Assembly (NCBI GenBank): GCA_021161425.1 | Contig: JAGHAQ010000041.1 | Location: 1-50,053 of the forward strand | DNA length: 50,053 bases | Reading direction: 5' to 3' | Origin: Candidatus Tharpella sp. | GTDB lineage: Bacteria; Desulfobacterota; Anaeroferrophillalia; Anaeroferrophillales; Tharpellaceae | Shown here: positions 5,432 to 50,053 of the stretch, piece after piece | Layout of the letters: each line of letters begins with the position of its first letter | Position numbering within the stretch: the stretch's first letter is position 1 | Made by a program: the position numbers and the translations under genes | Notes under the pieces: generated by a model | Told to the model about the DNA's origin: nothing | What the model saw: only the letters and a program-made list of their open reading frames with translations | Databases searched by the model: none

Positions 5432-5489
5432 GAAGGCGGACTCGTCCCCTTCGACCTTGGTTTATTCGGGTCCTGAGGTTGGCGACTTG

Positions 5490-5630
5490 ATGCTCTGGAC
5501 ATCCAGTTTTGAGAACGGTGTCAGTGAATTTGACAACCAACATCACCGGCTCGTCGATTTTGTCAACGAGCTTTATAAAGGCGTCGACCGCAAATGCGGT
5601 TCGTTTTTTAATGGTAAGGGAGTTTATTAG
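5490..5630 (+). pseudogene. Truncated bacteriohemerythrin domain remnant
   Basis: MLWTSSFENGVSEFDNQHHRLVDFVNELYKGVDRKCGSFFNGKGVY*: hemerythrin N-terminal signature (GVxExDxQHxxLVxxVNxLY), stop before the later metal-ligand helices. Confidence 0.75.
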
Positions 5631-5642
5631 AGAATGAAATAT

Positions 5643-5676
5643 AAAAAAAGGCAGGCCTGAGGCCTGCCTTTTTTTT
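5643..5676 (+). terminator. Rho-independent terminator
   Basis: AAAAAAAGGCAGGCCTGAGGCCTGCCTTTTTTTT. Confidence 0.85.
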
Positions 5677-5981
5677 GTGATCTTTGGGCCGTTGTCAAAG
5701 TTTAATGTTTCTTCGTATGAAGTATACAGTTTGTCGCTTGACAAAGGTCTCGTGCTTATGTTAACAAGCTCAGCGAGTTCACTTAATGTGAGCGGTTATT
5801 CACTTTTGTCGGACCTTTAAGGGTATCCCGGCCGAGAGTTTTTAGTTAGTTGTAAGTTGTTGTTTTTATAGTTTATTGTTGAATTGTGTAGGGGTGGTCT
5901 TTTGCCGTTGATGGTTACCGTCCCAACACTTCTGTACTTGTCAGGTTCCCGGTTCTTGCCGGGGTAGGGGAATGAAAGGCT

Positions 5982-31778: not shown

Positions 31779-32669
31779 TCAACCAATCTCTTTTTGCCAG
31801 GCTTCAATCTCTAAATCAGGCATTTTTTTGAAACGTCCCTGGGCTTTCAGGTAATCTTTGACCGGGATTGAATTTTCTGGTTTCAAGGTTTGTCGAAGCA
31901 GGCCGTTATCATCCATCTCGAGGAGCGGGAAAACCCCGCTGTCGACGGCCATTCGGGTAATCTTGAGGGCATCTTGGGAATCGATTTTCCAGCCCGAAGG
32001 GCAGGCTGCCAGCAGATGTATAAATCGGAAACCGGAGGCGGCTTTGGCTTTTTTGAGTTTTAAATAGAAATCTTCCGGATAGGCGATCGTCGCACTGGCC
32101 AGATAACTCGGGTTATGGGCTTTGATGATCGCCATAATATCTTTTTTGGCGTACTGGAACTCTTTGCCGCCCGGCGTGGTCGTCGTCCAGGCACCATGCG
32201 GGGTCGCCGATGATTGTTGGATTCCGGTGTTCATGTAGGCTTCGTTGTCGTAGCAAATATAGATTATATCTTCATGCCGTTCAGCCGCTCCGGAAATGCC
32301 TTGAAGGCCGATATCAAAAGTGCCGCCGTCACCGGCCCAGGCGAGAACTTCGACACCCGTTTTTCCTTGGGCGGTCAGAGATCGCCGAACGCCGCTGGCT
32401 GCCGCCGCCGCCACTGCAAACGGGGTGTGGAGAAGGGGAACCGAGAGGGCTGTGGTCGGTTGGCCGCCGGCAATAATCGCCCAGCAGCAGGCCGGCATGA
32501 CAACTATGGTTTGCGGCCCCAAGATCTTCAAGGTGTGGCGCATACTTAAGGCGGCACCACAACCAGGGCAGGCCATGTGGCCGCTCTCCATATATTCAGC
32601 CTTGGTGATTTGCCAAGCTGTATTCTTGCTGAAGCTATTTTCAGTTGGAGATATATTTGTATTGTTCAT
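31779..32669 (-). CDS. porB: Pyruvate/2-oxoacid:ferredoxin oxidoreductase beta subunit (PorB-like)
   Basis: CPGCGAALSMRHTLKILG, WAGDGGTFDIGLQGISGAAERHEDIIYICYDNEAYMNTGIQQSSATPHGAWTTTTPGGK. Confidence 0.9.
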   Translation of the reverse strand: MNNTNISPTENSFSKNTAWQITKAEYMESGHMACPGCGAALSMRHTLKILGPQTIVVMPACCWAIIAGGQPTTALSVPLLHTPFAVAAAAASGVRRSLTAQGKTGVEVLAWAGDGGTFDIGLQGISGAAERHEDIIYICYDNEAYMNTGIQQSSATPHGAWTTTTPGGKEFQYAKKDIMAIIKAHNPSYLASATIAYPEDFYLKLKKAKAASGFRFIHLLAACPSGWKIDSQDALKITRMAVDSGVFPLLEMDDNGLLRQTLKPENSIPVKDYLKAQGRFKKMPDLEIEAWQKEIG

Positions 32670-32687
32670 GCTTGTCTCTTTTTTACG

Positions 32688-33842
32688 TTAGCTGTCAAGC
32701 CAGTTACACTCAACACTTGACAGTTGTTCCCGGTTTTCAACCACTTCTGTGATAGTCTCGGGAAAGACCTCTTTGCCGCCAAGACTGATCATGACATCAT
32801 TAATCAGAGGTCTTTGCGGCAGATTGTAGAGGGCGGCGCGAACCTCCTGGCTCAGGGTTCCGCCGACCCCGTAGGAGCAGGCCCGGTTCAAGACTATAAC
32901 CTGTTTTTTATCTTTTAACGCTTCACACAGTTCCCGATTGGGAAAGGGGCGCAGAAGACGTAATTTAATGAGGTCTGTCGGAGTACCGTTCTTGTTCAAT
33001 TCGGCAACCGCTACGCGAACGGTTCCGGTCATCGCTCCACAGCAAAGCAACGCTGTGTTGCTCTTCTCATCTCCCTCTGGACAACGCATAACCGGCTGGT
33101 AGCAACGACCAAATTTTTGCGCAAACTCTTCTTGACATTGGTCAAGAACCGTTAGGGCTTCGGTCATGGTTTCGGAGAATGTTTTTTTCAGCTCATAGAA
33201 GAGATCGGGATGGGCTGCGGCACCAAAGGTCAACGAATTGTCGGGATCGAGCCGGTACGGTGCTTTGTAGGCCGGCAGATAGTCATCGACTATCTGCTGG
33301 TCGGGAACCAGAAGTCGTTCCATCGTGTGAGAGAGGATAAAGCCGTCAATCATCACCATGATCGGTAGCATCAACTGCTCGCTGGCTTTGTAGGCTATGA
33401 TGATCGTATCGAGAGCCTCTTGTGAGGTTTCGCAATAGATCTGTAGCCAACCGGTGTCGCGCTGGGAAAAACTGTCACTTTGGTCACTCCAGATATTCCA
33501 GGGAGCGCCTAAGGCGCGGTTGGCATTGACCAGAACCAAGGGCAAGCGAGCTCCGGCAACCCAGTGCAGGATCTCATGCATCATTGCCAGACCCTGTGAA
33601 CTGCTGGCTGTAAAAGAGCGGCTGCCGGTCGAAACCGAGCCTAAAACCGCAGCAATTGCCGACATCTCCGACTCGACTTTGATATATTGACTTTTTAGTT
33701 CGCCGCTGTCGACCATCTCGGAGAGGGTCTCGATAATATGGGTCTGGGGGGTTATAGGATAGGCTGAGATTACTTCCGGACGGCTCAGCCTGACTCCATG
33801 CGCGATCGCATCGCTGCCCAGTAGGATGGCTTGTTTGTGCAT
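32688..33842 (-). CDS. porA: Pyruvate/2-oxoacid:ferredoxin oxidoreductase alpha subunit (PorA-like)
   Basis: EVISAYPITPQTHIIETLSEMV, YIKVESEMSAIAAVLGSVSTGSRSFTASSSQGLAMMHE, LGAPWNIWSDQSDSFSQRDTGWLQIYCE; start at MHKQAILLG. Confidence 0.9.
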   Translation of the reverse strand: MHKQAILLGSDAIAHGVRLSRPEVISAYPITPQTHIIETLSEMVDSGELKSQYIKVESEMSAIAAVLGSVSTGSRSFTASSSQGLAMMHEILHWVAGARLPLVLVNANRALGAPWNIWSDQSDSFSQRDTGWLQIYCETSQEALDTIIIAYKASEQLMLPIMVMIDGFILSHTMERLLVPDQQIVDDYLPAYKAPYRLDPDNSLTFGAAAHPDLFYELKKTFSETMTEALTVLDQCQEEFAQKFGRCYQPVMRCPEGDEKSNTALLCCGAMTGTVRVAVAELNKNGTPTDLIKLRLLRPFPNRELCEALKDKKQVIVLNRACSYGVGGTLSQEVRAALYNLPQRPLINDVMISLGGKEVFPETITEVVENREQLSSVECNWLDS

Positions 33843-33843
33843 G

Positions 33844-35457
33844 TTAATGATCCTCCTCCATCTCAATCACCCCACGCGGACAGATCGCGGCACACTGACC
33901 ACAGCCTTTACAGTGATCATAATCAAAGAGTACCCTTTTGTCAGGGTTACTTTCCTCTAGGTCGATAGCAATTGCAACGTCAGGACAGAAGAACCAGCAG
34001 ATGCCGCAGGCGGTACAGCTACCGCAATGAAAACAGCGTTCAATCTCGCTTTTCATCTGCTCTTCACTTAAGGCTTGTCGAATCTCGGAAAAATTCTCTT
34101 TTCTGATTCGGCTGTCGAGTTCCGGGACGCTGACGGCCGGTTTTTTGCTGTAGTATTCGAGATGAAGTTGATCATTCTCGACAATGACCGGGTTTTCCGA
34201 ACCTTCGTTGACATCTATCGATGGAGTTATCTCTAATTGCTTAAGGATATTTTCGGCCGCCCGGCGCCCGGAAGCTAGAGCTTCGGCTACCGAGGCTGCA
34301 CCATGGTCAAAATCTCCCGCCTTGATGACCGAATCATTATTATCAAAGGCAAGATCGCTTTCCTGGCCGATGGCCGCGATCAAGTAGTCGGTTTCAATCG
34401 TCTTTAGAAAAGTTCCGGCATTGATCCGGCCGGCGTTGTTTTGGGTCTGGTGGATGTTGAGTTGCAAAGTGTTGGCAACGGTCTCTATCTTTTCAACGAC
34501 TTCCTCTTCATTGATTAACAGCCCCTCTTCAAGGGCTTGCTTTTTTTCCTCTTCATAAGCCGGCATTTCGGCAATTGTCCGTCGGTAAACGATTTCGACC
34601 TGTTTGCCCAGCCGCAAGAGAGAGCGGGCTGTATCGAGGGCTGCATTGCCACCGCCGACAACAATGAAACGCTGACCGTCAATATTTTCGCCCCGGTTGA
34701 TTGCCGCCAGTATTTCCAGAGCACCTTTTATTTGTGGGATAGTGCGCCACGGGGTCGGCAGGCTGGAGTGTTGCAGGCCCGGAGCCCAGATAATGTTATG
34801 ATACTCTTTTTTAAGTTGCAGCAGTTCTGATGCTTCAATATTGCGATTGCACTGCAAATCAATATTGAAGCTTGTGAGTAGATTGTCTATCTCCTGATCA
34901 AGAATAGAGCGCGGCAAACGGTAGGCGGGGATACCGTAACGTAAAAGTCCACCAGCCGTCGGGGCTTTTTCGAAGATAGTTACCTTGAGACCTTGGCGGG
35001 CGAGAAAAAAAGCAGCGCTTAAACCCGCCGGTCCGGCACCGATGATGGCGATCTTTTCAGTTTTTTTTTCGGCGCTTGCGGGATGTGGATACTCTAGCCC
35101 CAGATCTCCGAGATAGCGTTCCAAGTCACCGATTAAAACCGCTTCATCAAATTCTTGGCGATTGCAGGCGCTCTGACAGAAATGCGGGCAGACGCGGCCG
35201 GTGACGGCCGGCATCGGGTTGGTGTCGCGCAAGAGATCCAGAGCTTCCAAAGGTTTGCCGGAAGAGAGTTTGTCAAGGTAGGTGGCAATTGGAATATTTA
35301 AAGGACAAGCCTGACGACAAGGGGAGTCTTTGGCAACCAGGTGGGGGCGAAAAAATTTCCAGTTTCCGGTCAGGTTGATCGCAGTTGAGGTTGCCGATAT
35401 CGGCAGACCTCTGAAATCACCGTTTTGAATGGCTTTTACGTGTTTTAGTTTGGTCAT
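33844..35457 (-). CDS. Fused GltD-like FAD/NAD(P)-binding oxidoreductase plus PorD-type 2[4Fe-4S] ferredoxin
   Basis: CRQACPLNIPIATYL, GAGPAGLSAAFFLARQGLKVTIFEKAPTAGGLLRYGIPAYRLP, VVGGGNAALDTARSLLRLG; C-terminal CGSCTACGICWFFCPDVAIAI and CKGCGQCAAICPRGVIEM; start at MTKLKHV. Confidence 0.88.
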   Translation of the reverse strand: MTKLKHVKAIQNGDFRGLPISATSTAINLTGNWKFFRPHLVAKDSPCRQACPLNIPIATYLDKLSSGKPLEALDLLRDTNPMPAVTGRVCPHFCQSACNRQEFDEAVLIGDLERYLGDLGLEYPHPASAEKKTEKIAIIGAGPAGLSAAFFLARQGLKVTIFEKAPTAGGLLRYGIPAYRLPRSILDQEIDNLLTSFNIDLQCNRNIEASELLQLKKEYHNIIWAPGLQHSSLPTPWRTIPQIKGALEILAAINRGENIDGQRFIVVGGGNAALDTARSLLRLGKQVEIVYRRTIAEMPAYEEEKKQALEEGLLINEEEVVEKIETVANTLQLNIHQTQNNAGRINAGTFLKTIETDYLIAAIGQESDLAFDNNDSVIKAGDFDHGAASVAEALASGRRAAENILKQLEITPSIDVNEGSENPVIVENDQLHLEYYSKKPAVSVPELDSRIRKENFSEIRQALSEEQMKSEIERCFHCGSCTACGICWFFCPDVAIAIDLEESNPDKRVLFDYDHCKGCGQCAAICPRGVIEMEEDH

Positions 35458-35464
35458 AATCAAT

Positions 35465-36040
35465 TTATGGGTTGATAACGGTTTCGTAGGCTTGGCGCAA
35501 TGCTTTCTCATTGTCAGCAAGGCGGGCGGGGATGAAGCTGGGAAGAGCCTGGATCAGACTCTCCGGTTTGACCAGGCCGCTGACTTTAGCCAAAGCTCCA
35601 AGCACCGGGGCGTTGATCAAGGGCATGATTTTATTGCCCAGTTTGTGTTCCAGAGCAATACGATTGAGATTTATGGTGATAATTTGATATGGTGGCGGCG
35701 ATTTGGATTGAGTTGCCGAACCGAGATTGAAACTATCGGCCGGCTGGTCGCTGTTGATGAGGATGAGACCGCCCTTTTTGAGGCCGTCGGTGACCGCCAC
35801 GGACTCAATCAGGCGGGCCGCCATGACGATCACATAGTCGGGTTTAGTAACGCGGCTGCGGATGTTGATAAAAGTGTCGTCGGCCCGCACGAAGGCGGCC
35901 ACCGGTGCTCCCCGTCGTTCAGCTCCGAAGGTTGGAAAAGACTGGGCGTAACGACCTTCAAGAAAGAGCGCCTGGGCCAGAATTCGGGATGCGATAACGG
36001 CACCCTGGCCGCCGCGGCCATGAAAACGAATCTCCTGCAT
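35465..36040 (-). CDS. porG: Pyruvate/2-oxoacid:ferredoxin oxidoreductase gamma subunit (PorG-like)
   Basis: QEIRFHGRGGQGAVIASRILAQALFLEGRYAQSFPTFGAERRGAPVAAFVR. Confidence 0.9.
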   Translation of the reverse strand: MQEIRFHGRGGQGAVIASRILAQALFLEGRYAQSFPTFGAERRGAPVAAFVRADDTFINIRSRVTKPDYVIVMAARLIESVAVTDGLKKGGLILINSDQPADSFNLGSATQSKSPPPYQIITINLNRIALEHKLGNKIMPLINAPVLGALAKVSGLVKPESLIQALPSFIPARLADNEKALRQAYETVINP

Positions 36041-36276
36041 AATAAATAGTTGCTTGTTGAATATTAATTTATAGATATATCTGTTGTTGGTAAAGACGAC
36101 CTTCTGTTTAGACTTGGCAAAAAAGAATGTCAAGTTTTAAAGTAACTTTTCAGTTTGGTCTAGGCTATTTCCCCATAAATTTCAGCGATGTCGGCTTATT
36201 TAACCCGGTTTACTATTATTTTTTGACTTATATCCGGTGTTAATCATTTGTGGTTTGAACAACCATGATGTTTCTG

Positions 36277-36343: not shown

Positions 36344-38404
36344 GTGAATACAGTTAATACCATAGCGCCGGGTGCCAGGGTCGTAATTCGGGATGCCGAA
36401 TGGCTGGTGCGGAAGATGGACAGGACCTCAACCGGCGGATTTGCCCTGACTGTGGTCGGCATTTCGGAACTGGTTAAGGATAAAGAGGCAATTTTTCTTG
36501 ATGAGATTGACACAAATATCGAGGTTCTTGATCCCGTAGATACCAAACTGGTGCCCGACACCTCCAGCTCCTATCAGGGTTCTCTACTTTACATGGAAAG
36601 CCTGTTGCGACAAATTCCTCCAACAGACGAAAAACTCTACGTCGGCCATAAAGCCGCCATGGATCACGTACCCTATCAGCTTGACCCGGCAATTCAAGCC
36701 TTGGAGCAACCCCGACAACGCATATTAATTGCCGATGCCGTTGGCCTTGGTAAGACTTTGGCCTGCGGCATTCTGGTCAGCGAGTTGATTCGCCGAGGCA
36801 AAGGTAAGCGTATTCTGGTACTGGCTGTAAAAAGCATGCTGACCCAGTTCCAGAAAGAAATGTGGTCGCGCTTCACCATTCCTCTAGTTCGCCTTGATTC
36901 GGTCGGCATTCATCGGGTTCGTTCCAAAATCCCCACCAATCACAACCCTTTTTACTATTACGACAAAACCATTGTCTCTATCGACACGCTGAAGCAAGAC
37001 ACCGAATATCGCAACTATCTGGAAAACGCCTATTGGGACATCATCGTTATCGATGAAGCTCACAATGTCGCCCAGCGTGGCAAAGGTTCTTCGCAACGCG
37101 CCAAACTGGCCAAACTTCTCTCCGGACGATCCGATACTTTGATCATGCTATCAGCAACCCCGCATGACGGCCGGGCGCGAAGTTTTGCCAGTTTAATGAA
37201 TATGCTTGATCCCACAGCCATCGCCAACCCGGACAACTATGGGCCGGAGGATATCAAAGGTTTATGTATCCGCCGTTTTAAAAAGGATATTCAGGATCAG
37301 GTGCAGAGCGCCTTTAAAGCCAGAGAGATCAGCAAGGCCTACTGTCAGGCGACCAATGTCGAAGAGGTTGCATATGATATTCTGTCTGAAATGCAATTTG
37401 CCAAGTTGGACCAACACAAAGGTGCCGGACAACTCTTTAAAACTACCCTGGAAAAAGCGTTGTTCTCCAGTCCTGCGGCCTGTCTTTTAACAATTTCTAA
37501 CCGGATCCAGCGTCTTAAAAAAGATGATTCCCCGGAAGCCTTACAAGATATTGAACGCCTTTCGGAACTTGCCGTAGCAGTATTCGACATCACCCCTGTC
37601 AATTTTTCCAAATATCAGAAACTTCTCTTCGTTATCTCCGACAAAAAACATGGCTATGGCTGGACCGGAAAATATAAGCATGACCGTCTCGTCATTTTCA
37701 CTGAACGCATCGAAACCTTACGTTTTCTGGAAATGCATCTTACCAAAGACCTCAAATTGAAAAATAATCAAGTCGCTATCCTGCATGGTACCATGCCTGA
37801 TGTGGAACAACAAAAAATCGTCGAGGATTTCGGCAAGGAAGAGGCCCCGGTGCGCCTGCTAATTGCTTCTGATGTCGCTTCTGAGGGTATCAACCTACAT
37901 TACTTAAGTCATCGACTTATTCATTTTGACATCCCCTGGTCACTCATGGTTTTTCAGCAACGAAATGGACGGGTTGATCGTTATGGTCAGGAGCACACTC
38001 CCTATATTCTCTATCTAGTTAACCAAAGCGTAAACGACAAAATCAAAGGCGACATGCGTATTCTTGAGCTCCTCATCGCCAAGGATGAAGAGGCCGTAAA
38101 AAATATCGGCGACCCCTCCGCCCTCATGGGTGTCTATGACATTGATGAAGAGGAGCGGATAACTGCCAAAGCCATTGAAACCGGTATCAGCAGCTTGGCT
38201 TTTGAACAGAAATTAAACCAAAATAGTGATGAGGCTTTCGACCCGCTCGCCCTTTTAATGGGTGGGAATGAGTCCGACAACAAACCACCAGCAGCCGAAA
38301 ACCGTTTAAGCTCCATGCCCACCCTCTACAATGATGATTTCTCCTACCTTAAAGAAGCCATTGAGCACTTAAGGCAAGCGGAGACCCTTACAGGCCGATT
38401 TTGA
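36344..38404 (+). CDS. SNF2-family helicase 1 (N-terminal portion; frame lost near 38387)
   Basis: Walker A DAVGLGKTLACGI, DEAH VIDEAHNVAQ, LSATPHDGRA, SDVASEGINLHYL, motif VI QQRNGRVDRYGQ. Confidence 0.88.
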   Translation: MNTVNTIAPGARVVIRDAEWLVRKMDRTSTGGFALTVVGISELVKDKEAIFLDEIDTNIEVLDPVDTKLVPDTSSSYQGSLLYMESLLRQIPPTDEKLYVGHKAAMDHVPYQLDPAIQALEQPRQRILIADAVGLGKTLACGILVSELIRRGKGKRILVLAVKSMLTQFQKEMWSRFTIPLVRLDSVGIHRVRSKIPTNHNPFYYYDKTIVSIDTLKQDTEYRNYLENAYWDIIVIDEAHNVAQRGKGSSQRAKLAKLLSGRSDTLIMLSATPHDGRARSFASLMNMLDPTAIANPDNYGPEDIKGLCIRRFKKDIQDQVQSAFKAREISKAYCQATNVEEVAYDILSEMQFAKLDQHKGAGQLFKTTLEKALFSSPAACLLTISNRIQRLKKDDSPEALQDIERLSELAVAVFDITPVNFSKYQKLLFVISDKKHGYGWTGKYKHDRLVIFTERIETLRFLEMHLTKDLKLKNNQVAILHGTMPDVEQQKIVEDFGKEEAPVRLLIASDVASEGINLHYLSHRLIHFDIPWSLMVFQQRNGRVDRYGQEHTPYILYLVNQSVNDKIKGDMRILELLIAKDEEAVKNIGDPSALMGVYDIDEEERITAKAIETGISSLAFEQKLNQNSDEAFDPLALLMGGNESDNKPPAAENRLSSMPTLYNDDFSYLKEAIEHLRQAETLTGRF

Positions 38405-39194
38405 TGACGACCTACAACAGATATCCCTAACCGCCACCAAAGACCTTAAACATCGACTTAAATTCACTTTGCCCAGCGAGGTCTGGCCGGATGACGAAAT
38501 CTTTGTTCTATCTGCCGATCCTGATGTGATTCAGAAAGAGATCAAACGCAGTCGTAAGGATGAAAATGCATGGCCAAACATCCACTACCTCTGGCAGCAC
38601 AACCCGATCCTTGCCTGGATTAACGATAAGGTTGTTGCTGAATTCGGTCGGCATGAAGCACCAGTATTAACTCTTTTCAGTACTTTGGCTCAGGGCGAAA
38701 CAGTCTTCATTATTTCCGCCCTGATCCCTAACCGCAAAGGCCACCCTCTGGTTCATCGCTGGTTTGGCGTCACAGTTAAGCAAGATGATTTCCAGCAAAT
38801 TGAAAAGTTCAAACCTCTGCTAAATAGAACCGGTCTCGGCAAAAATCGATTCCCCAGCAAAGAGACCCAACTTGACCTTGATTCTCTGCGACGTCTTTTG
38901 CCCGAAGCTGTACAGCAGGCCAAAATCTATATGAGTGAGCAACGGCAAACCTTTGAAGATATGATCAACCCCAAACTCCAGGAACAGCTTGATAAATTAG
39001 AGCGACTTAAAGGCAAACAATACAAACAGCTTGAACTCTTCTATATGGAGAAAAAGCAAATCAACAAGAAAGAGCAGGAAAAGCGCGAAATCGAGCGCAA
39101 ATTTGATGAATTCATCGATTGGGTTGAAGAGACCATGACGACTGAAGACAAGCCCTTTATTCAGGTTGTTGCCGTTTTGCAGGGGGCTCAATAA
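38405..39194 (+). CDS. C-terminal portion of SNF2 helicase 1 in the +1 frame
   Basis: Open frame reads LQADFDDDLQQISLTATKDLKHRLKFTLPSEVWPDDE... with no stop or start at the junction; contains FGRHEAPVLTLF and SALIPNRKGHPLVHRWFGV. The track ORF starts at TTG 38469. Confidence 0.7.
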
Positions 39195-42100
39195 TGGCCG
39201 GTTTCCTTCAAGATCCGATCTCAATAATCAATCTTATCTCTGACAATCTCCGCGATCGTTACAGCAGATTTCAAGTTTTAAAGGAAATCATTCAAAATGC
39301 TGATGATGCAGGGAAAGGCAACCTAAATATCCACTTAGAATATGGTATTGTCAACGGTTTATCCTCCGCTGAGCACCCACTTCTCCAAGGACCAGCTCTA
39401 TTCTTTCTTAATGATGGTACGTTCTCTGATTCTGATGAAAAAGCTATACGTTCATTCGGTCTGAACCAAAAAGCAGAGGATGCAGCCTCTATTGGAAAAT
39501 TTGGCTTAGGCATGAAGAGTGTTTTTCACTTCTGCGAAGCCTTTTTCTTCTTGGCGCAAGATAATAATAAATCTTATTCAAATATTCTCAACCCTTGGTC
39601 GGGAAGTGATGATTTTAAATCAGTGCATGAAGATTGGGAAGGGTTTACGAAGAGTGATGCTGAGCTGATAAGAAATCGCTTGACCCGAGTTTTTGATAAC
39701 TTGGAAGAAAAGCGAGAATCCTACTTTCTAATATGGCTTCCACTACGTATGAGAAAGCATCTCCAAGTTGATGAAACTGAAGTTGGTAGTATTGTTTCAG
39801 AATTTCCCGGTGATGATGCCCGCCAACTAGCTTTTCTGGATGAAAATATATTACCACAAAAACTTGCTGCCCTGCTCCCTTTACTACGTTGCCTGGAAGG
39901 TATAAGATATTGGCGTGAACAAGAAACTGGCGATCTTGAACCGGCCTTTCACATTCTTCTAAAAGATTATTCCGCACGGATTAAAGGTTTTAAAGAGGAA
40001 AACTGCAGTTTCTCTTTTAGCGGTGAAGTCGAATATTTTGTTGGCAACGACAAGCCATCGTTGCAATCATATCACGGTAAAGAGAGTTTTTTACAATCTA
40101 AAACCCTCTCCTCACTTAAAAAATCCGACTTATGGCCCAAAAGCTACGTGCGTGACGAAAATGGTATTAGCCAAGAAGCCCCCGACAAAGCCAAGCCCCA
40201 TTGCGCCGTATTTTTTTCGCGTTCACCAACCATACAGAAAAGTGAATTAAGACTACGCTGGGCCGTTTTCCTGCCGGTCAAAGCGGGAGAAGAAAATATT
40301 CAGTGTAAAGGTGATATTTCTTTTCGTTTGTTTTTACACGGCTATTTTTTTGTTGATGCAGGCAGGACGGATATTGACGGATTACAAGATAATTCATCAT
40401 CAATAACTTTAAACGGCCAGCTAAAAAACGAAGCTGATCTTCGTAAAACTTGGAATATCTATTTGGCCGAAAAAGGTATCTTAAGGTTGATTTTGCCAGC
40501 CTTGGGCGAATTTACAAGAAAATCGAGACTTTCCTTTCTTGAAATCTATAATCTCTGCACAGCACTTAAAGAAACAAATCTTTTTTGCGAAAAAAGAGAG
40601 CTTATTTGCAATTCATATCAGTGGCTGTGTACTATTACGCCCACCAAACAAGTGTGGAAACTTGTCCCCAGAGACAAAAAAATCCTTCCTTTGCCAACAC
40701 CTCCTAAATCAGTATCTGAGAGACCATGGCAAACATTTACAAAACTTCAACACTTAGACAATGATGTTGTCTTTATTTTAACTAATGTACCGCATTTGAT
40801 GTGCTCTCGTTTACCTCAATGGGATGAAACCGACCTTGAAATATTTCTTGATTCTACTGTTGTAAAAAATTTCAACGACCAGGGCCGTTTGGAATATATG
40901 TTAGATTTTTTGTTCAGTAACGGCGTTAGACCTTTTCTTAAACTACCATCTTTACAAAACAAACTACAGGAACTTCTCCGACAGGCTTTCATCGAATTTG
41001 GTGATGACCTCCGTCAATATCGTCAAAAGATTCATCAATATGTTTCTCTAATTCTACCGGAAAGAAGATATGTTATTAATAATGTTGACCAGAAAATATT
41101 TTGCCAACTCCAAAAAAGTCGAACTGATTGTCTTGTCCTGAATAACTATTTTGATGCAACGGAAAATCCTGGCAAAGCTGATCTCTCTTACGAAGACAGT
41201 CTAAAACTTTTTCATCAACTAAACGATTTAATTCTCAAATACAGCAATACTGAAGATCAAGAAATTGTAAATTCATGCCGAGTGATCATTCGGAAAATAT
41301 TGCAATCCATCAAAGAGGAAGATCGCCATAGACTGCTTAATAGTTCGGCAACCACTTTAAAATTATTAGAAGGGTACGATTGCCAAAACGACACCCTTAA
41401 GTCTCTTTCTGCCGAGGAAATTCGGAAATGTATGAATGATGGTTTATTATTTATTTACTCCTCGGGTATAAATGACCGGCAAAAACATGGACTGGCACCA
41501 AAGTTACAAAAAGTAGTCAAAGGTCGAGTTTTACTGATTCCTAGCGAAACGGGCAAATTACTTTTTGGTTCAAACCATAGTTTATTACCTTGTCATTCAA
41601 ACAGTATACTTAATTGTCTTGGATCGCGAGAACAACGATTGCAATCAATAGAAAACCGGCTAAATTTACTGGCAGATGTTGCCGGTGCTGATCTTCTATC
41701 AGAACAACGTGTACGAGGATTGCGGTACCTTCTCCACGGTACTGAAGACCGATTTTACGATTGTTCTACACTATGGGTTTCCGGACATGAACAAAGTCCT
41801 GTTTGGATAAAACTCTGGCAACAGGTTAAAGAAACCGAAAAAGATAACTGGAATTTACTGGAGAGAACACTGGTCGGTAAAATTCCATCAGATAAATGGA
41901 CAGATCTATCAATCCGAGAAATCAAACCTGAAGGAATTCTGGGTGAGCTTAGAAATAAGGGTACAGATGTTTTAACAGGTAATCTTTTCAACCTGGACGA
42001 GCGTAATGCTGTTCTAAAAGAACTTATCAGTGATGAGCAGCTTTGGAAACAGTTACCGTTTCATGAAACGGTAAGCGGATGCTTGGTCAGCATAACAGAA

Positions 42101-45100
42101 AAGTCTTATCTCGAAACAGGTATTTACCTGCCCGATGAATTGCAAGACCATGTCAACATAATCAAACCTTCAGATGACTTTACCATCAGTAGACAACAAC
42201 GTGATTGGCTTATCCCTCTTTCCAAGCAAGACGTAATCAAAACGGCTTTAAAATATGATCAGGCTGTAAATTTCTGGCAACTGATAATGGACAACCTTGA
42301 GCACCCCAGTTTGGACGCCGACCTAAACTATTTGTTGCGTAATGCCGCTTGGATACCCGACGTCAATTACAATCCTGTAAAGCCATCAGAGGTAATCTAT
42401 CTTGAAAGTATGCAGGATGAGGTAGACAGATTGTTGGTGGCTGCTCGTAACATTTTCTGGTCACCCAGCAAACTGCACAAAAAAGTGCAAAACCACCCAT
42501 CCTTTGCAATGCTTAAGGAATCCTATTTTGCAAAAGATCACGAGGGGCTTGAGCAATTTGGTCTACTGTTGGGCGAAACAGAAGAATATCATATCGGCAA
42601 CTTTGGCAAAGGGGATAATTTCAAACGAGTACTCACTGTATGCTCCCGTATTCCCTTGAACCTGAACCTTCCAGGGTGGACGTTGCTATCCAATGCTTCT
42701 AAAATTTACTCGTTGGATATAATTGAAGAACACCTTTTGCCGGAAATGTTAAAAACAGTCAGCATGGGGAAGATCTTCAACACATTAAAATGGTTGCAAA
42801 ATGAGCACGTCAGAACCGGCCAAAGTGAAAAGAAAAATGTTTTAGTTGCTTTTAACGCATATCTTTCTGCCTTTGTTAATGAGGGTGGAAGCAATCAAGA
42901 TCTTTTCCAATTTCACTTGTTGAACCATGAAGAAAGATGGAAACCAACCAATCAACTTTGTGTCGAGGTCCAAGGTGTTTCGGAAGCCTTTTTGTTGGAT
43001 TCTGTTCAAAGAAAAATTTTATCTAAAATTATTTTTTCAGGTGATCAACATTTCCAAAATAATGTTATTCAACTGAATGCCAGAATTGATGACACTAAAG
43101 AATCTCCAAAACACATTAAGCAGTACTTTTCTCTCTGGAAAGGACTTGTAGCTGATGAAGTGATTTGTGCATTCATTACCCTGCTTGGAGATGACACGGA
43201 AATCTGCTCCCTGGCTAAACAATACCAAGGAAGGCATTCTGTCGATTGGATACGACATGAAATCCCCTGGAACCCAAGCAATTATTGGAGCATTAGCAAA
43301 CAGGAAGCATTTGCAAAACACAGAGTCGTCGTTAAAATTCACGATGACACAGTTGTTAAGACATATTCAATACGTGGTGATAAAATTGAGCTACCTGTAA
43401 GTAAAAATATTGATTCACTGTTTATAAATTGTGTTTTCGGTCTTTCTGCTGGAAGTTATAGAGTCTCAAAATTCAATTTAAGGAATTTTCACCCTGGAGA
43501 GAAAACGAGTGCTGAACTGACAAAACTTCTCAAATCTTCAGCTGAAATCATCTTGAAAGGTGCTTTCAAACAGGAAAACTATAATCTTGATTTGCTATGG
43601 CAAAAATTGGATAAATCAGAGCAACTTGACATTAAAGTAGCCCAAAGCCTCATTCTCAATCATATGCCATTTTATTTGAGACAATTGGGAATACATAAAC
43701 ACCCCATATTGCAGAACCTACTACATCAATGGCACGATGCCTGTTGTAGACAAGAAGAATATTATGATTCACCAAATAAAAGACAAAAATATGAGGATGA
43801 AAAAAGGATGCATTTGCAAAAGATACGTGATCTTTTGCTAAATGATGGGGCGGCTCAAAAGATTGTTTTGAATGCTGTTCGTGCAAAGATTAAAGACTTT
43901 CAGTATACGCCTGCCAGCATTCCTTTTGAATTATTTCAAAATGCTGATGATTCTATGGCAGAACTCGTAGAAATAAAATCACATCAAAATACTGTTCCAA
44001 GGAATGTTAAACGATTCTTGATCCTTGATGATGGTAAATCAATGACTTTCATCCATTGGGGAAGAGCTATCAATGCGGATGGTGGTGCCGGGTTTCCAGG
44101 ACGTAAAAGAGGATTCCATTATGATCTAGAAAAAATGTTGGTACTATCTTCTTCTGATAAATCTGAAAACAACAGGGTCACCGGAAAATTTGGCTTGGGT
44201 TTCAAAAGTGTTTTATTGGCTAGCGATAAACCAAAATTGATTAGTGGTCGCTTGTCAGTAGAAATTATTGCTGGTCTCTGTCCGATACTTCTTAAAAATA
44301 CAGGAGAGCTACGCCAAAAGTTACATGAACATTCACCAAGTAAACAATATCAGGGCACACTTGTAGAAATGCCATTAACCGAAGCATCATCATTAGATGT
44401 AATGGCGTTTTTTCCTGACCTGGCTGGTATCATGACCATCTTTGCTAAACAGATTCGCCAAATTGATATTCATGGGAAGCAAAGCCATTCCTGGGAATGG
44501 ATACCTGACATAATACCTTTATCAGATACAACTTGTCTTGAAATCGGTGAATTGAGCCTGCCAGGTAGTTCAAGACAAAAAGAATTGTTACTTTATTTCA
44601 GGATTGACAAAAGTGGGGTCTTGGTGGCTTTGGGGCCGAAAGGATTTCGACCTCTTCCAAATGAATTACCAGCGGTGTGGGTGGTTGCGCCAACGGGGGG
44701 GCAAGGTCCTGGTTTTTCCATTAATGGTTCCTTTGAACTTGATGCTGGGCGGGCCAACCTTTCCAGTAGCAGTGCTGGCAACCAGGAAATGGCTAAAAAT
44801 CTTGGACAATCTTTTGGAAAACTGCTCTCGGAACTCTACAACTTGACCGAAGATCAAAATCAGTGGGAAGGTATAAAGGGTAAATGTCGTTTAGAAAAAG
44901 ATCTTACTCCCTACCTCTTCTGGTCAAGTTTATGGGAAGTATTAGGTAGGGGATTGTCTTTCACAGGGGGAAATGAAGCAGTTCGCTTGGTTATAACGCA
45001 AGTATTAACTGAAGAAAGTGGCCTCGGCTATCTACTTAGACATTCCGATGCAATGCCGAATGGGCTATGGGGTAAATTTCAGGCCTTAACCAATCCGAAA

Positions 45101-46750
45101 AAGATCAAGACAGTTCTCAAGGGTTGTTTGGAACGGGAAACAGTTTTCAAAGGACTTTCAAGCTGGGAACCGTTAAAAAACATACTGACAGATCCAGGCT
45201 CTACAATTTCTGAATATACATACAATGTCGCAAGAAAGATTACATCAGATATAGGTCTAACAACTGATCAATGGCGTTTCGTACACCTTGATGATCTACT
45301 TAATGACTTCACATCAAGTGGCGGAGAACTAACACCTGAAGCGGCAACCGTGCTTGGAGGAACGCTCAACCATAGAAGCTTAGATCAGGATGAATTTAAG
45401 AAGGAAAAAGAGCAAATCATCAGGGCGTTAAGATCTTTTTCCTTCAAAGCCTTGGACGGTTCTCGGCAGCCATCCAGTAAGCTTCTGTTTCAAAACACTC
45501 ATAAGCGGGCAAATCCCGATGAAGCAAAGCGGGCGGCCTTTGCCCCGGACAGATATATTCTGTCTCCTGAATATGAAGCCAACTGTCTGGATCTCTTTTT
45601 TATCTGTCGCGAGAAGATCGCTATTCCGGCAGATGAAATGGTAACCTGGTTGCTTGACGCCTCGAACGATACAAAGAGAGAAAAAGGATTGAGCTATCTG
45701 CTGGAAGGTGAACATGGAAGAAGTACGGCAAAATCTTTGAGAGGACGCGGTTTACGTGGTACGTGGTTAGACGAGCTAAGTCCGACATCAACACTTCTCG
45801 CAGACTGGGCAGCAGATGATCGTATTGATCTGATTTGCAGAGATCTCAAATCGACAGATGAACTTCGCCAATTTGAATTTTCGGATGAAGAAGATTACTC
45901 TTTACTCGAAAATGAATTAGGCGGATATGCCCCCAAAGAGGTTTTACAGAAAATTTATTGCTGGTGGGCTGCCAACAAAAGTAAATATCTGTTCAAATAT
46001 GAACGCAAAACATATCCTGCAAATATCTCCATTACCTTCTTAGAAGATGATGTTGGCCGCATCGACAGAAAATCATGGTTGACATTGTTCAGTCTCTCCC
46101 ACTTTCATACAATTGGTCGCCAGAGAGACGTACAGCATAAAGGTTTTATTGATAAGTGTATAAGTAGGGGGTGGTGGGATACTTTTTCTAAAGAGCAACC
46201 AGATGAGAGATCTGATGAATGGATGAAGGTTTTGGAAGATTATATCAATGAACAGGTTGATGTAAGCGAGTATGAACTCTGGATGAATCATTTTCCAGCT
46301 ATCTATAAATTTGCTCGGTGGATGGAAGACTATAAAGAGGCATTTCTTTGTATCGAACGTATGGACACTTTAGATTCAAATACAATCGCTGGGATATTAA
46401 GGCCAAAAACAAATACCCAATTTCAGGGTGGCGGAATAAATGCCCCACCCAATGAAAAAAGTTTGGGAATCGGAGTGTGTTTTGTCCTGCGTGAACTAAA
46501 AAGAAAAAAAATCATTAATAATGACCTGGTTATCCCATACTGCTATGTCCCGACCAAAAGTATTCGGGATTTTTGTAACTTACTTGGCTGTAACGTGCTA
46601 TCGGAAAATGGCGGAATTTATAATTCCAAAAAGATTTATGATTTTCTTTACCAGCATTTAGATGAACAAGCTACATTCCTTGATTGTTACGATATACCAT
46701 TACGATTTGTAGCAAATGACCCCGATCTCCTTAAATCAATTTTGAATTAG
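39194..46750 (+). CDS. Giant (2518 aa) sacsin-like protein with two GHKL ATPase domains
   Basis: GHKL-1: LKEIIQNADDAG ... IGKFGLGMKSVFHFCE; GHKL-2: PFELFQNADDSM ... LILDDGKSM ... TGKFGLGFKSVLLASD; start overlaps the helicase stop (TAATG). Confidence 0.85.
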   Translation: MAGFLQDPISIINLISDNLRDRYSRFQVLKEIIQNADDAGKGNLNIHLEYGIVNGLSSAEHPLLQGPALFFLNDGTFSDSDEKAIRSFGLNQKAEDAASIGKFGLGMKSVFHFCEAFFFLAQDNNKSYSNILNPWSGSDDFKSVHEDWEGFTKSDAELIRNRLTRVFDNLEEKRESYFLIWLPLRMRKHLQVDETEVGSIVSEFPGDDARQLAFLDENILPQKLAALLPLLRCLEGIRYWREQETGDLEPAFHILLKDYSARIKGFKEENCSFSFSGEVEYFVGNDKPSLQSYHGKESFLQSKTLSSLKKSDLWPKSYVRDENGISQEAPDKAKPHCAVFFSRSPTIQKSELRLRWAVFLPVKAGEENIQCKGDISFRLFLHGYFFVDAGRTDIDGLQDNSSSITLNGQLKNEADLRKTWNIYLAEKGILRLILPALGEFTRKSRLSFLEIYNLCTALKETNLFCEKRELICNSYQWLCTITPTKQVWKLVPRDKKILPLPTPPKSVSERPWQTFTKLQHLDNDVVFILTNVPHLMCSRLPQWDETDLEIFLDSTVVKNFNDQGRLEYMLDFLFSNGVRPFLKLPSLQNKLQELLRQAFIEFGDDLRQYRQKIHQYVSLILPERRYVINNVDQKIFCQLQKSRTDCLVLNNYFDATENPGKADLSYEDSLKLFHQLNDLILKYSNTEDQEIVNSCRVIIRKILQSIKEEDRHRLLNSSATTLKLLEGYDCQNDTLKSLSAEEIRKCMNDGLLFIYSSGINDRQKHGLAPKLQKVVKGRVLLIPSETGKLLFGSNHSLLPCHSNSILNCLGSREQRLQSIENRLNLLADVAGADLLSEQRVRGLRYLLHGTEDRFYDCSTLWVSGHEQSPVWIKLWQQVKETEKDNWNLLERTLVGKIPSDKWTDLSIREIKPEGILGELRNKGTDVLTGNLFNLDERNAVLKELISDEQLWKQLPFHETVSGCLVSITEKSYLETGIYLPDELQDHVNIIKPSDDFTISRQQRDWLIPLSKQDVIKTALKYDQAVNFWQLIMDNLEHPSLDADLNYLLRNAAWIPDVNYNPVKPSEVIYLESMQDEVDRLLVAARNIFWSPSKLHKKVQNHPSFAMLKESYFAKDHEGLEQFGLLLGETEEYHIGNFGKGDNFKRVLTVCSRIPLNLNLPGWTLLSNASKIYSLDIIEEHLLPEMLKTVSMGKIFNTLKWLQNEHVRTGQSEKKNVLVAFNAYLSAFVNEGGSNQDLFQFHLLNHEERWKPTNQLCVEVQGVSEAFLLDSVQRKILSKIIFSGDQHFQNNVIQLNARIDDTKESPKHIKQYFSLWKGLVADEVICAFITLLGDDTEICSLAKQYQGRHSVDWIRHEIPWNPSNYWSISKQEAFAKHRVVVKIHDDTVVKTYSIRGDKIELPVSKNIDSLFINCVFGLSAGSYRVSKFNLRNFHPGEKTSAELTKLLKSSAEIILKGAFKQENYNLDLLWQKLDKSEQLDIKVAQSLILNHMPFYLRQLGIHKHPILQNLLHQWHDACCRQEEYYDSPNKRQKYEDEKRMHLQKIRDLLLNDGAAQKIVLNAVRAKIKDFQYTPASIPFELFQNADDSMAELVEIKSHQNTVPRNVKRFLILDDGKSMTFIHWGRAINADGGAGFPGRKRGFHYDLEKMLVLSSSDKSENNRVTGKFGLGFKSVLLASDKPKLISGRLSVEIIAGLCPILLKNTGELRQKLHEHSPSKQYQGTLVEMPLTEASSLDVMAFFPDLAGIMTIFAKQIRQIDIHGKQSHSWEWIPDIIPLSDTTCLEIGELSLPGSSRQKELLLYFRIDKSGVLVALGPKGFRPLPNELPAVWVVAPTGGQGPGFSINGSFELDAGRANLSSSSAGNQEMAKNLGQSFGKLLSELYNLTEDQNQWEGIKGKCRLEKDLTPYLFWSSLWEVLGRGLSFTGGNEAVRLVITQVLTEESGLGYLLRHSDAMPNGLWGKFQALTNPKKIKTVLKGCLERETVFKGLSSWEPLKNILTDPGSTISEYTYNVARKITSDIGLTTDQWRFVHLDDLLNDFTSSGGELTPEAATVLGGTLNHRSLDQDEFKKEKEQIIRALRSFSFKALDGSRQPSSKLLFQNTHKRANPDEAKRAAFAPDRYILSPEYEANCLDLFFICREKIAIPADEMVTWLLDASNDTKREKGLSYLLEGEHGRSTAKSLRGRGLRGTWLDELSPTSTLLADWAADDRIDLICRDLKSTDELRQFEFSDEEDYSLLENELGGYAPKEVLQKIYCWWAANKSKYLFKYERKTYPANISITFLEDDVGRIDRKSWLTLFSLSHFHTIGRQRDVQHKGFIDKCISRGWWDTFSKEQPDERSDEWMKVLEDYINEQVDVSEYELWMNHFPAIYKFARWMEDYKEAFLCIERMDTLDSNTIAGILRPKTNTQFQGGGINAPPNEKSLGIGVCFVLRELKRKKIINNDLVIPYCYVPTKSIRDFCNLLGCNVLSENGGIYNSKKIYDFLYQHLDEQATFLDCYDIPLRFVANDPDLLKSILN
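39284..39535 (+). other. GHKL ATPase site 1 (N-box EIIQNADDAG to G2 box GKFGLGMKSV)
   Basis: Motifs read from the translation. Confidence 0.8.
43918..44225 (+). other. GHKL ATPase site 2 (N-box ELFQNADD, G1 LDDG, G2 GKFGLGFKSV)
   Basis: Motifs read from the translation. Confidence 0.8.
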
Positions 46751-46759
46751 AGAGAAATT

Positions 46760-49429
46760 ATGCTTAAATTTTCCGCCGGACAAACCGTCTTTCATACTCA
46801 ATTCGGTACCGGACATGTTGAGTTCAATAAAGAAGAAACAGTTATTGTTCGCTTCGATCATGGTTTGGAAGAGTGTATTGCCGGGTCGCTGGAAATAAAG
46901 TCAGATATTGCTGAAAACATTGACAGAGGGAAGCTTTCATCGCCTACTGAAACGGCCTCCCGCGTTTTAGCTGAAGCTATTATTTCGGTAAATGATAATT
47001 GGGGGGTTTTTTCAAAATCAAGAATTGCCCTGCTTCCCCATCAGCTTTGGGTTTGTCACCGAGTTCTTCGGCAATGGCCGGCTCATTATCTGGTTGCTGA
47101 TGACGTCGGGCTTGGCAAAACCATTGAAGCTGGCCTTATTTTATGGCCTTTGTTGGCAAAAGGGCTGGTCAAACGTCTTCTGGTTATAAGCCCAGCCTCA
47201 CTGGTCGAACAGTGGCAATTTAGATTACGGGATATGTTTGATATCCGTCTAACCCGTTATCTTCCTGAGGCGGATACCGCCCGTTCAGATTTCTGGAACA
47301 CTCAAAACCAGATTGTTGTCTCTCTACAAACCCTGCGGGATGATCACAAGGGCCGTCATCAACGCCTGCTTGAGGCCGAGCCCTGGGATCTGCTTATTGT
47401 CGATGAGGCCCATCATCTAAATGCAGACAAAGATTCCGGAGCTACCCTGGGTTATCGCCTGGTAGATAATCTGGTTCGAAAAAATCTGACCAAATCCAGA
47501 ATATTTTTCACCGGCACACCCCATAAAGGCAAAGATTTCGGTTTCTTTGCCCTTCTGAAATTATTGCGACCTGATCGGTTCTCTCCAAACAAACCAATAC
47601 ATCAACAACTTCCCCACCTTCGTGACGTAATTATCCGCAATAATAAACAGAACGTTACGGACATGGAAGGTAAAAAGATTTTCAAACCGATAACGGTAAG
47701 CTCTGAAACCTATTCTTACACCGAAGAAGAAACATCCTTTTATAATATTTTAACAGACTTCATCACTTCAGGGAAAACATACGCTTCCTCCCTTTCCAGC
47801 AATGATCAGCGGGCGGTTATGCTTGTCTTAATCTCCATGCAAAAGCTTGCCTCAAGTTCAGTTGCCGCAATCAGAAAAGCTTTAACCGGACGCCTGTCAC
47901 GCTTAAAAGAAGCGGGTAACAATTTGCAACAGGCCCAGAAACGACAACAGGTTATCCGAGAAATTTTATCCCGTGCTGACGAATCAACCGTTTCATCTTT
48001 GACCGACGAATTGCAGAAACAAGATGAACTGGTTGCCGGATTATCATCGTCCCTGCCGTTGATGAAAGATGAAATCCCCTTATTGGAAATATTAGTAGAC
48101 GCAGCTGACAACATAACATACGAAACAAAAATCAAGAAAATTATCGAAATACTTGAAACTCGCTACCGTAATCGCGCAGTTCTTTTATTTACAGAATATA
48201 AAGCAACCCAGGCATTGTTGATGTCTGAACTAATGCAAAAGTTCGGCGATAATAGCGTTACTTTCATTAACGGTGACCATAGAGCTGAGAATGTAGCTGG
48301 TTCTGACGGTAAACTTCGGACAATCTCTCTCAAAAGAAATGACGCAGCCGATCTCTTCAATGATGGCAAGGTTCGTTTTCTGGTCTCTACTGAGGCCGCT
48401 GGTGAAGGTATTGACCTTCAGGAATCATGTTTTTCTCTTATTCATGTTGATCTGCCATGGAACCCGATGCGGCTTCATCAACGTGTAGGCCGTTTGAACC
48501 GGTATGGTCAAAAACATCCGGTTGAAGTCATTAACTTGCGTAATCCAGACACGGTTGAATCCCGTATCTGGGACAAATTGAATGAAAAAATCAGTAGCAT
48601 CATGCAGGCCCTGGGCAGTGCTATGGATGAACCTGAAGATCTGTTGCAACTGGTTTTAGGAATGGCGTCCCCTTCTTTATTTACAGAGCTTTTTACAGAT
48701 GGAGCAACTGTTCCGGCCGACCGGTTGGACAACTGGTTTGACACCAAGTCAAAAACATTCGGTGGAAATGATGCTATTGAAACCGTCCAGAACCTGATTG
48801 GCAACTGTTCCCGATTCGACTACCAGGATCTCAAAAGAATCCCAAAAAAAGACCTCGAAGACCTCCAACCTTTTTTTGAAACCATGCTCCTTTTGAACAA
48901 ACGGCGAGTATTACATGAGGATTCAGGTTTGTTATTTAAAACCCCGGATGAATGGTTGAAAGATGCCGGAGTCAGAAGGCGTTATGAAGACTTGGTTTTT
49001 TCTCGAGACTTAAAAGGGAAAGATGCGGCTCTGCGAGTTGTCGGCGTGGGACATAAAGTGTTTGATCAAGCTTTAATGCAAGCCGGCGGATACGATGCCT
49101 GCCTCACACAATTTTCCGACCTAGAAGAGCCATTGGTAATCTTTAAAATATTTGACCGAGTCACGTCCCAGGATGGTAATGTTCGACAAGTTATAATCGG
49201 CATTAAGGGTAATAAAGATGAAATATTGCAGGATTGGCAGCTGATAGATCTGATAAATCAATTGTTAAAGTCAAAAAAACCAAGTTCTGAAAGTGAAAAT
49301 CGTCTCGAATCACAGGCATTACATAGTATTATTAAAAACTCAGAAAATACCCTCAAGCAGCATATAGAAAGTTTGAATCTTCCCTTTAGCGTACCTGAGA
49401 TTAAACCTTTGGCCCTGTTCATACCTTAA
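46760..49429 (+). CDS. SNF2/RapA-like helicase 2
   Basis: Walker A DDVGLGKTIEAGL, DEAH IVDEAHHLNAD, FTGTPHKGKDFGFFALL, STEAAGEGIDLQ, HQRVGRLNRYGQKHPVEVINLRNPDTVESRIWDKL. Confidence 0.92.
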   Translation: MLKFSAGQTVFHTQFGTGHVEFNKEETVIVRFDHGLEECIAGSLEIKSDIAENIDRGKLSSPTETASRVLAEAIISVNDNWGVFSKSRIALLPHQLWVCHRVLRQWPAHYLVADDVGLGKTIEAGLILWPLLAKGLVKRLLVISPASLVEQWQFRLRDMFDIRLTRYLPEADTARSDFWNTQNQIVVSLQTLRDDHKGRHQRLLEAEPWDLLIVDEAHHLNADKDSGATLGYRLVDNLVRKNLTKSRIFFTGTPHKGKDFGFFALLKLLRPDRFSPNKPIHQQLPHLRDVIIRNNKQNVTDMEGKKIFKPITVSSETYSYTEEETSFYNILTDFITSGKTYASSLSSNDQRAVMLVLISMQKLASSSVAAIRKALTGRLSRLKEAGNNLQQAQKRQQVIREILSRADESTVSSLTDELQKQDELVAGLSSSLPLMKDEIPLLEILVDAADNITYETKIKKIIEILETRYRNRAVLLFTEYKATQALLMSELMQKFGDNSVTFINGDHRAENVAGSDGKLRTISLKRNDAADLFNDGKVRFLVSTEAAGEGIDLQESCFSLIHVDLPWNPMRLHQRVGRLNRYGQKHPVEVINLRNPDTVESRIWDKLNEKISSIMQALGSAMDEPEDLLQLVLGMASPSLFTELFTDGATVPADRLDNWFDTKSKTFGGNDAIETVQNLIGNCSRFDYQDLKRIPKKDLEDLQPFFETMLLLNKRRVLHEDSGLLFKTPDEWLKDAGVRRRYEDLVFSRDLKGKDAALRVVGVGHKVFDQALMQAGGYDACLTQFSDLEEPLVIFKIFDRVTSQDGNVRQVIIGIKGNKDEILQDWQLIDLINQLLKSKKPSSESENRLESQALHSIIKNSENTLKQHIESLNLPFSVPEIKPLALFIP

Positions 49430-49464
49430 AATCAGGGCGAATCAATTATTTATAGTTGAAAATT

Positions 49465-50053
49465 ATGGCCATCGATATTACCGGCATCAACAACGAGAAC
49501 GAGTTTTACACCCATCATTATCTCTCCGCTATCCTGGAAAATGATTTGAAGGATGTCTTTGCGGAGTGGAAACGGCGGGATGAAAAGGATGGGGTTGTCC
49601 AACCTTATGTAACTCTCAGAAGTTTGCGAAAAAGTTTTTTCGTCACCCAAGACCTTCTCAGCCGAGAGCGAAAAAACCGTGAGCGGCTTGCGCTGCAAAA
49701 AGATTTACTGGCCGGGTTTCTCTCCGCTCTGGGTTATGAATGGCAAAATGAACTGGTCACTATGGATGATGGTTCTGTTATTCCTTTAATTGGCGGTATC
49801 AATAAAGCCGATGGCTCGCCAGATCTGTGGATTATTCAGGCCCTGGATATTTTTGCTGAGGAGGCTGATCCTCTGGAATTGCGGCTCGTTCCTGAACAAT
49901 ATCCAGACGGTGTTGAAGCAGAGAAGGTTCTTGATCTCCCTTTTACCGAGATTATCAGCAAAAATATCTTCAGCCGCAGTGAACCTCCCCGCTGGTTGAT
50001 TCTTATCAGCAGCACCCAACTTCTTCTCATTGACCGAACCAAATGGAATGAGA
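49465..50053 (+). CDS. N-terminus of a large protein cut by the window edge; putative Eco57I/PglX-like DNA methylase/type IIG-like protein
   Basis: Continuous frame from ATG 49465 to the window end: MAIDITGINNENEFYTHHYLSAILENDLKDVFAEWKRRDEKDGVVQPYVTL...; absent from the ORF track because it has no stop in the window. Methylase call rests on N-terminal resemblance and gene context; no catalytic motif is visible yet. Confidence 0.5.
   Translation, partial: MAIDITGINNENEFYTHHYLSAILENDLKDVFAEWKRRDEKDGVVQPYVTLRSLRKSFFVTQDLLSRERKNRERLALQKDLLAGFLSALGYEWQNELVTMDDGSVIPLIGGINKADGSPDLWIIQALDIFAEEADPLELRLVPEQYPDGVEAEKVLDLPFTEIISKNIFSRSEPPRWLILISSTQLLLIDRTKWNE

Follow-up and report, generated by a model that had tools for sequence, protein, structure and literature searches.

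Sacsin is a giant chain with several Hsp90-like heads, arranged as three SRRs together with J and HEPN domains. ATP binding and hydrolysis by these heads are debated (PMC9880540). GHKL ATPases with helicases and exchangeable C-termini are already known from MORC/paraMORC restriction-modification operons, which combine a GHKL+S5-type ATPase with an SFII helicase and with C-terminal domains such as nuclease or TIR (PMC2292703). GHKL-controlled effectors are known from VcSduA, a Shedu protein of phage defence in which the GHKL N-domain is proposed to govern the DNA-directed effector at the C-terminus (PMC12137116). Tiamat (TmtA), a large prokaryotic protein with a sacsin-like GHKL head, is listed as anti-phage, and DarTG is an established anti-phage system (PMC11481870). 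Here we analyse a 50,053-nucleotide stretch of DNA from Candidatus Tharpella sp. (contig JAGHAQ010000041.1; hereafter the window), in which a 2518-residue protein with two GHKL heads and the SNF2 helicase encoded directly downstream form a two-gene cassette.

The cassette and its relatives resemble each of these systems in part. With sacsin SRR/SR1 (PF25794; PDB 5V44-5V47) they share the sequence, the fold and the divergent G1 motif of head 1, and the presence of several Hsp90-like heads on a giant chain; unlike sacsin, the protein has two heads and gave no Pfam match to a J or HEPN domain, its second head is nearer to Hsp90 in the fold search, and its partners across the family are a helicase, DarT or NOV_C. 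Two heads, DarT/DarG and NOV_C are not described for MORC/paraMORC (PMC2292703), and VcSduA has one short GHKL head per chain and a DUF4263 nuclease (PMC12137116). TmtA models cover the heads only, whereas the family has two heads and a partner gene. The partner helicase is of the RapA/BrxHII type, as are the DISARM DrmD, ArmA and BrxHII helicases, and matches PADLOC DrmD (PDLC02634) over its full length with 1076 bits, but it lies below the NCBIfam DrmD equivalog cut-off (308 versus 610 bits), and drmABC is not required. Seven cyanobacterial relatives have DarT and a downstream macro-domain DarG, as in DarTG, but their DarT is fused to the two-headed protein and not free-standing. In the open-access papers searched, we found no description of the two heads, the dedicated helicase or the swapping of helicase, DarT-DarG and NOV_C.

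Two GHKL heads in one open reading frame

The gene for the two-headed GHKL (sacsin/Hsp90-like) protein occupies 39194..46750 on the + strand, as do all features described for it below. It is an ATG-initiated open reading frame (ORF) of 2518 codons with no internal stop; its start overlaps the stop of the preceding ORF, and the next gene begins 9 bp after its end. A whole-genome search with Pfam SACS (PF25794) matched the protein twice (E = 5.5e-23, 81.6 bits; E = 9.9e-10, 38.7 bits), both times above the curated cut-off of 32.8 bits, and the NCBIfam model 'sacsin N-terminal ATP-binding-like' scored 118.6 bits over two stretches. Both heads therefore score as sacsin/SACS domains, in line with the comparison to sacsin SRR units drawn in an initial annotation of this DNA.

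That annotation had also placed an N-box and a G2 box in each half, about 1,540 residues apart. The ATPase core of head 1 (residues 19-125; 39248..39568) is sacsin SR1-like by Pfam SACS and HATPase_c_3, by a PDB profile match and by its model. It contains an N-box with E31, N35 and D38 (KEIIQNADDAG; 39284..39307) and a G2 box, GKFGLGMKSVF (39494..39525; G2 residues 101-106). Head 2 is part of a module that resembles Hsp90 N+middle by Pfam, model and Foldseek (residues 1507-1960; 43712..45073), with an N-box containing E1579, N1583 and D1586 (FELFQNADDSM; 43928..43951) and a G2 box, GKFGLGFKSV (44183..44214; G2 residues 1664-1669). The two N-box glutamates are 1,548 residues apart. The N-box E, N and D and the glycines of G2 vary little or not at all across the aligned relatives (31 for head 1, 26 for head 2), and both sites are therefore under selection. 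Residue positions, Pfam matches and conservation thus all bear out the two sites.

Each head is followed by the same FxxDxGR motif, and its arginine (R391, 40364..40366; R1853, 44750..44752) is invariant in both alignments. Arg474 of sacsin is a proposed catalytic arginine with Arg380 as its Hsp90 counterpart (PMC9880540), and R391 and R1853 may correspond to it. The canonical G1 motif (DxGxG) is degenerate in both heads. In the family alignment head 1 reads N-[DN]-G-x-F at this place, and head 2 lacks the conserved Asp and largely keeps HxGRxI[NG]. Sacsin SR1, aligned with head 1, reads NNAVF here, so that the G1 of head 1 is sacsin-like; because the G1 of sacsin itself diverges, degeneracy does not exclude kinship.

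AlphaFold2 models built with family alignments had a predicted local distance difference test (pLDDT) score of 85.9 for residues 1-782 and 85.2 for residues 1502-2518. In a profile search against the PDB, head 1 matched sacsin SR1 (E = 2.4e-19), which was also its best Foldseek hit (E = 1.1e-9); Foldseek further matched the MORC2 ATPase and ParE over ~480 columns. Head 2 matched full-length Hsp90/TRAP1 (E = 6e-9) across Hsp90 N+middle. Template modelling (TM) scores were low for the whole models, in part because the queries are far longer than the matched domains, and reached 0.55-0.62 for head 1 (normalised to the sacsin target) and at most 0.45 for head 2 (normalised to a TRAP1 target). A Bergerat fold is thus predicted for both heads, of the sacsin/MORC2/ParE kind in head 1 and of the Hsp90/TRAP1 kind in head 2; the absence of such a fold from the second region, which would have counted against two ATPase sites, was not what the prediction gave.

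The homology between the heads is confined to the ATPase core (BLASTP, E = 0.002, 25.6% identity; hhalign, 86 columns, E = 2.7e-8), and any duplication of the heads must therefore be ancient. A recent tandem or internal duplication of the whole protein was rejected on the same ground, as the halves have just this core in common. The DNA around the two G2 boxes is very similar, as the initial annotation had noticed, with 27 of 32 nucleotides identical between 39494-39525 and 44183-44214. This similarity mostly reflects the coding of a conserved motif, and we rejected it as a signature of a recent copy.

Between the heads lies a middle region (residues 761-1500; 41474..43693) that is conserved family-wide and contains no known domain. 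Head 2 is followed by a conserved region, hereafter 'post' (residues 1967-2182; 45092..45739), which is the last part common to every effector type.

A two-headed platform with exchangeable effectors

We collected about 45 loci of the two-headed family from several bacterial phyla (33 GTDB contigs, 7 plasmids and further genome searches). The GTDB set leans towards nearer relatives because it was gathered with peptide patterns of the 2518-residue protein. The family is rare and patchy: it was found in 12 of 390 cyanobacterial genomes, in 3 of 297 from its own phylum, source genome included, and in 1 of 369 gammaproteobacterial genomes, that one being the query genome of the search. Carriage by phages was also considered, but a phage collection gave no match.

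The relatives are colinear, in the order head 1, middle region, head 2, 'post'. Most cyanobacteria encode head 1 (~700-900 residues) and the remainder (~1700-1970 residues) on separate adjacent genes, the split falling near the start of the middle region; in four loci (L015, L021, L053 and L076) the break is within head 2. A single polypeptide is therefore not essential. Of the intramolecular ATPase dimer suggested initially, the two Hsp90-like/sacsin-like heads stand and the strict need for one chain does not. That two adjacent chains can replace one argues that the halves act together, and dimerisation of the heads would go a step beyond that. An ATP-driven sensor or clamp would be a natural role for such heads beside SNF2 helicases.

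The part common to the family ends at about residue 2182, and the sequence beyond it differs by effector type. In the window this C-terminal slot holds an all-helical domain (residues 2243-2509; 45920..46720) which had no Pfam match and is seen only with an adjoining SNF2 helicase. Here that partner is an SNF2/RapA-type protein of 889 residues (46760..49429, + strand) of the DrmD-like clade (PADLOC PDLC02634), and it is the second gene of the cassette. The helical domain was paired with a DrmD-like SNF2 helicase directly downstream in all 29 loci where both could be read, the window included, and on some Deinococcus plasmids the two genes form minimal pairs; one of these pairs, in Deinococcus QL22, spans 15001-25046 of L048. 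Plasmid helicases at least 46% identical to the window's partner all adjoin two-headed genes, and the next best plasmid helicase is 28% identical. In genomes the partner clade ranges from 43 to 61% identity to it; none of the 11 searched genomes with a DarT or NOV_C version as locus contained a member, the next best being 30% identical. The second helicase copy of one genome adjoins a second two-headed gene (L069), which is the second cassette copy in the genome of L021.

In other loci the slot is filled differently. Seven cyanobacterial loci carry a DarT tail (PF14487), and in 7/7 a DarG macro-domain gene follows with an overlap of a few bases; in L024 the pair was matched by PF14487 and by PF01661/PADLOC DarG, with homologues in the seven loci. 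Six further cyanobacterial loci carry a NOV_C tail (PF13020), 6/6 of them without the helicase. A D...EVK pattern that is conserved in the NOV_C tails hints at a PD-(D/E)xK nuclease, and both DarT and NOV_C tails retain conserved residues. Helicase and DarT/NOV_C are mutually exclusive at any one locus (29:0 versus 0:13). These counts are not independent trials because labels on close relatives are not independent. In one genome (G031) a helicase-type locus coexists with one of the NOV_C type (L022 and L075).

Exchange of effectors is directly visible among close relatives. A tree built from head 2 and 'post' requires 5 changes of effector label, with NOV_C at three distinct positions. A DarT locus (L029) and a NOV_C locus (L041) are sisters with 100/100 support; their DNA is 83% identical over 7.3 kb, and the similarity stops at the effector. 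L027 (11928-18186) contains NOV_C, then a 72-codon scrap of the helicase (67 residues at 82% identity), then a 5'-truncated DarG, and is a swap scar with pieces of both other effector versions. The platform architecture and the swapping of its effectors are thus seen in the loci themselves. This suggests that a defence platform can retain its sensor and trade whole effectors, be it a helicase, a toxin-antitoxin pair or a nuclease, with the swaps still readable in the DNA.

A separate observation concerns a Haematobacter plasmid (L052, 7535-11752), where a 1405-residue protein weakly matches both a sacsin head and NOV_C. Its gene immediately precedes that of a two-headed protein with no recognised C-terminal effector. 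The effector is possibly on a separate chain there.

The family has a fair chance of deserving its own class. Plant NO VEIN is a giant protein with an Hsp90-like ATPase domain and a NOV_C C-terminus, and its resemblance to the NOV_C version is a lead only. The wider proposal is a defence class of its own, with a two-headed sacsin/Hsp90-like GHKL sensor that forms one unit in one or two chains and has interchangeable outputs (SNF2 helicase, DarT, NOV_C), and with the family as a possible prokaryotic source of the eukaryotic giant GHKL-NOV_C and sacsin proteins; we advance it tentatively, at somewhat less than an even chance. The family offers a tractable bacterial relative of sacsin, with natural readout enzymes (DarT, a nuclease-like domain, a helicase) on one two-headed platform. 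With these enzymes plugged into the same platform, sensing by the heads and switching of the output become directly testable.

Genomic setting and proposed role

The cassette sits exactly between two genes of an ARMADA-like operon. Upstream is an ArmA-like (BrxHII/DrmD-like) helicase gene (36344..39194, + strand) and downstream the N-terminus of an ArmB-like (PglX-like) methyltransferase (49456..50053, + strand), cut by the end of the contig; both are outside the cassette. On plasmids of Nostoc, E. coli and Pseudanabaena, a PglX-like methyltransferase gene begins within a few bases of the end of a gene for a ~955-residue helicase, and a large DruE/YprA-like helicase comes next. This set of helicase, methyltransferase and YprA-like helicase is ARMADA (PMC12458937). 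The window has the BrxHII-like ArmA and the PglX-like ArmB in one operon that the ARMADA definition needs (PMC12458937), and the contig ends within ArmB at 50053, before the place of the YprA-like ArmC. The proximity to SNF2 helicases reported initially therefore holds for the downstream partner, whereas the SNF2 gene at 36344-39194 belongs to the surrounding operon.

A congener has the same order, head 2-helicase-armB, at 67% identity. Other family members lie near DISARM drmABC, DrmMI-type methyltransferases or BREX genes (PglZ/BrxA). The guanine-cytosine (GC) fraction is 0.38-0.43 across the cassette versus mostly 0.45-0.52 upstream, and the cassette is possibly foreign DNA. The nesting in ARMADA, the varied defence neighbours, the Deinococcus pairs and the drop in GC together suggest that the cassette is a mobile defence module, inherited independently and able to nest in other systems.

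The cassette is probably a mobile two-gene anti-phage system that combines an ATP-gated two-headed platform with interchangeable DNA-directed effectors. The giant protein would be the platform, each head consisting of a GHKL domain and a middle/transducer domain with the FxxDxGR arginine. Binding of an invader-specific cue, either protein or DNA, would lead the heads to close on ATP, and closure would reshape the ~750-residue middle region together with the helical stretches that follow head 2. The change would reach the C-terminal slot, which in this version would dock the SNF2 translocase and switch it on at the invading DNA. In cyanobacterial versions the same platform would drive the fused DarT DNA ADP-ribosyltransferase, restrained by DarG from the next gene, or, in others, the fused NOV_C nuclease-like domain. 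We infer the ATP gating, the trigger, the head-head pairing, the docking between helicase and C-terminal domain, and the anti-phage activity. The DarT version is the strongest functional hint because a DNA-modifying toxin, with its antitoxin alongside, stands where this platform otherwise has the helicase branch.

Several points weigh against this proposal. The degenerate G1 in both heads makes ATP binding less than certain, above all in head 2, and the pairing of the heads is a step we infer. The DrmD branch yielded no nuclease or toxin that could account for harm to the invader. Association with DISARM, ARMADA or BREX is frequent but not universal in a plain tally of neighbours. To our knowledge, no family member has been challenged with phage.

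The nested position also fits another explanation, in which the cassette is no independent system and its two products serve the methylation-based operon next to them (ARMADA, DISARM) as optional subunits, for example as the kind of DNA-looping engine proposed for MORC/paraMORC proteins in restriction-modification operons. The armA-armB interval, the armB linkage in the congener and the DrmMI-type methyltransferase or SNF2 genes that adjoin several loci would all agree with it, and paraMORC proteins, which occur with SFII helicases and nucleases, provide a precedent (PMC2292703). However, ARMADA functions in E. coli without the cassette (PMC12458937), the neighbours vary between ARMADA, DISARM, BREX and none, and two of the three Deinococcus plasmid loci consist of the two genes only: the annotation within 12-15 kb of them shows no methyltransferase, and only near the third locus is there one. 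We regard an accessory role as rather unlikely. Membership of DISARM itself, as the PADLOC 'DrmD' label might imply, was rejected on the NCBIfam DrmD score given above; the core genes drmA, drmB and drmC are absent from the window and lie near one relative merely as neighbours.

It is very unlikely that the protein is a plain member of the known Tiamat family: although the PADLOC TmtA models are the sole defence models that match it (best E = 2e-24), their best stretches cover ~40-130 of 1302-1782 model positions and, judged from these models, the ATPase cores only, and two heads on ~2500 residues with a helicase or effector partner do not fit. Less probable still, the protein would be a bacterial equivalent of sacsin, acting as a chaperone or in protein quality control and without a role in defence. 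Its nearest solved structure is indeed sacsin SR1 and head 2 is Hsp90-like, but Pfam finds neither of sacsin's J and HEPN domains, the family is thinly scattered and sometimes on plasmids, and it is partnered by a DNA helicase, DarT/DarG or a nuclease-like domain.

Neighbouring genes and minor observations

The ArmA-like gene is broken. ORFs 36344-38404 and 38469-39194 (686 and 241 residues) correspond in alignment to the first and second half of a single ~955-residue helicase. The frame changes near a T-run at 38399-38402, which may reflect a real pseudogene, a programmed frameshift or an assembly error. We had considered both ORFs as subunits of the cassette and rejected them as halves of this single gene. 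The N-terminal methyltransferase at 49456-50053 was likewise rejected as a subunit, being ArmB-like, and a match of ORF 38469-39194 to Cas11a (E = 0.0027) was dismissed as chance.

Among the relatives, L024 encodes a protein of the endonuclease/exonuclease/phosphatase family (4984-5778) between a DrmD-type helicase and DrmMI, adjoining the DarT version. In L021 (3199-9856), PglZ, BrxA (BREX) and a PDC-S68 candidate helicase are found directly upstream of the two-headed gene. In the window, the defence region is bordered by a 2-oxoacid:ferredoxin oxidoreductase cluster on the - strand (31779-36133), with POR_N, TPP_enzyme_C and an FAD/Fe-S subunit.

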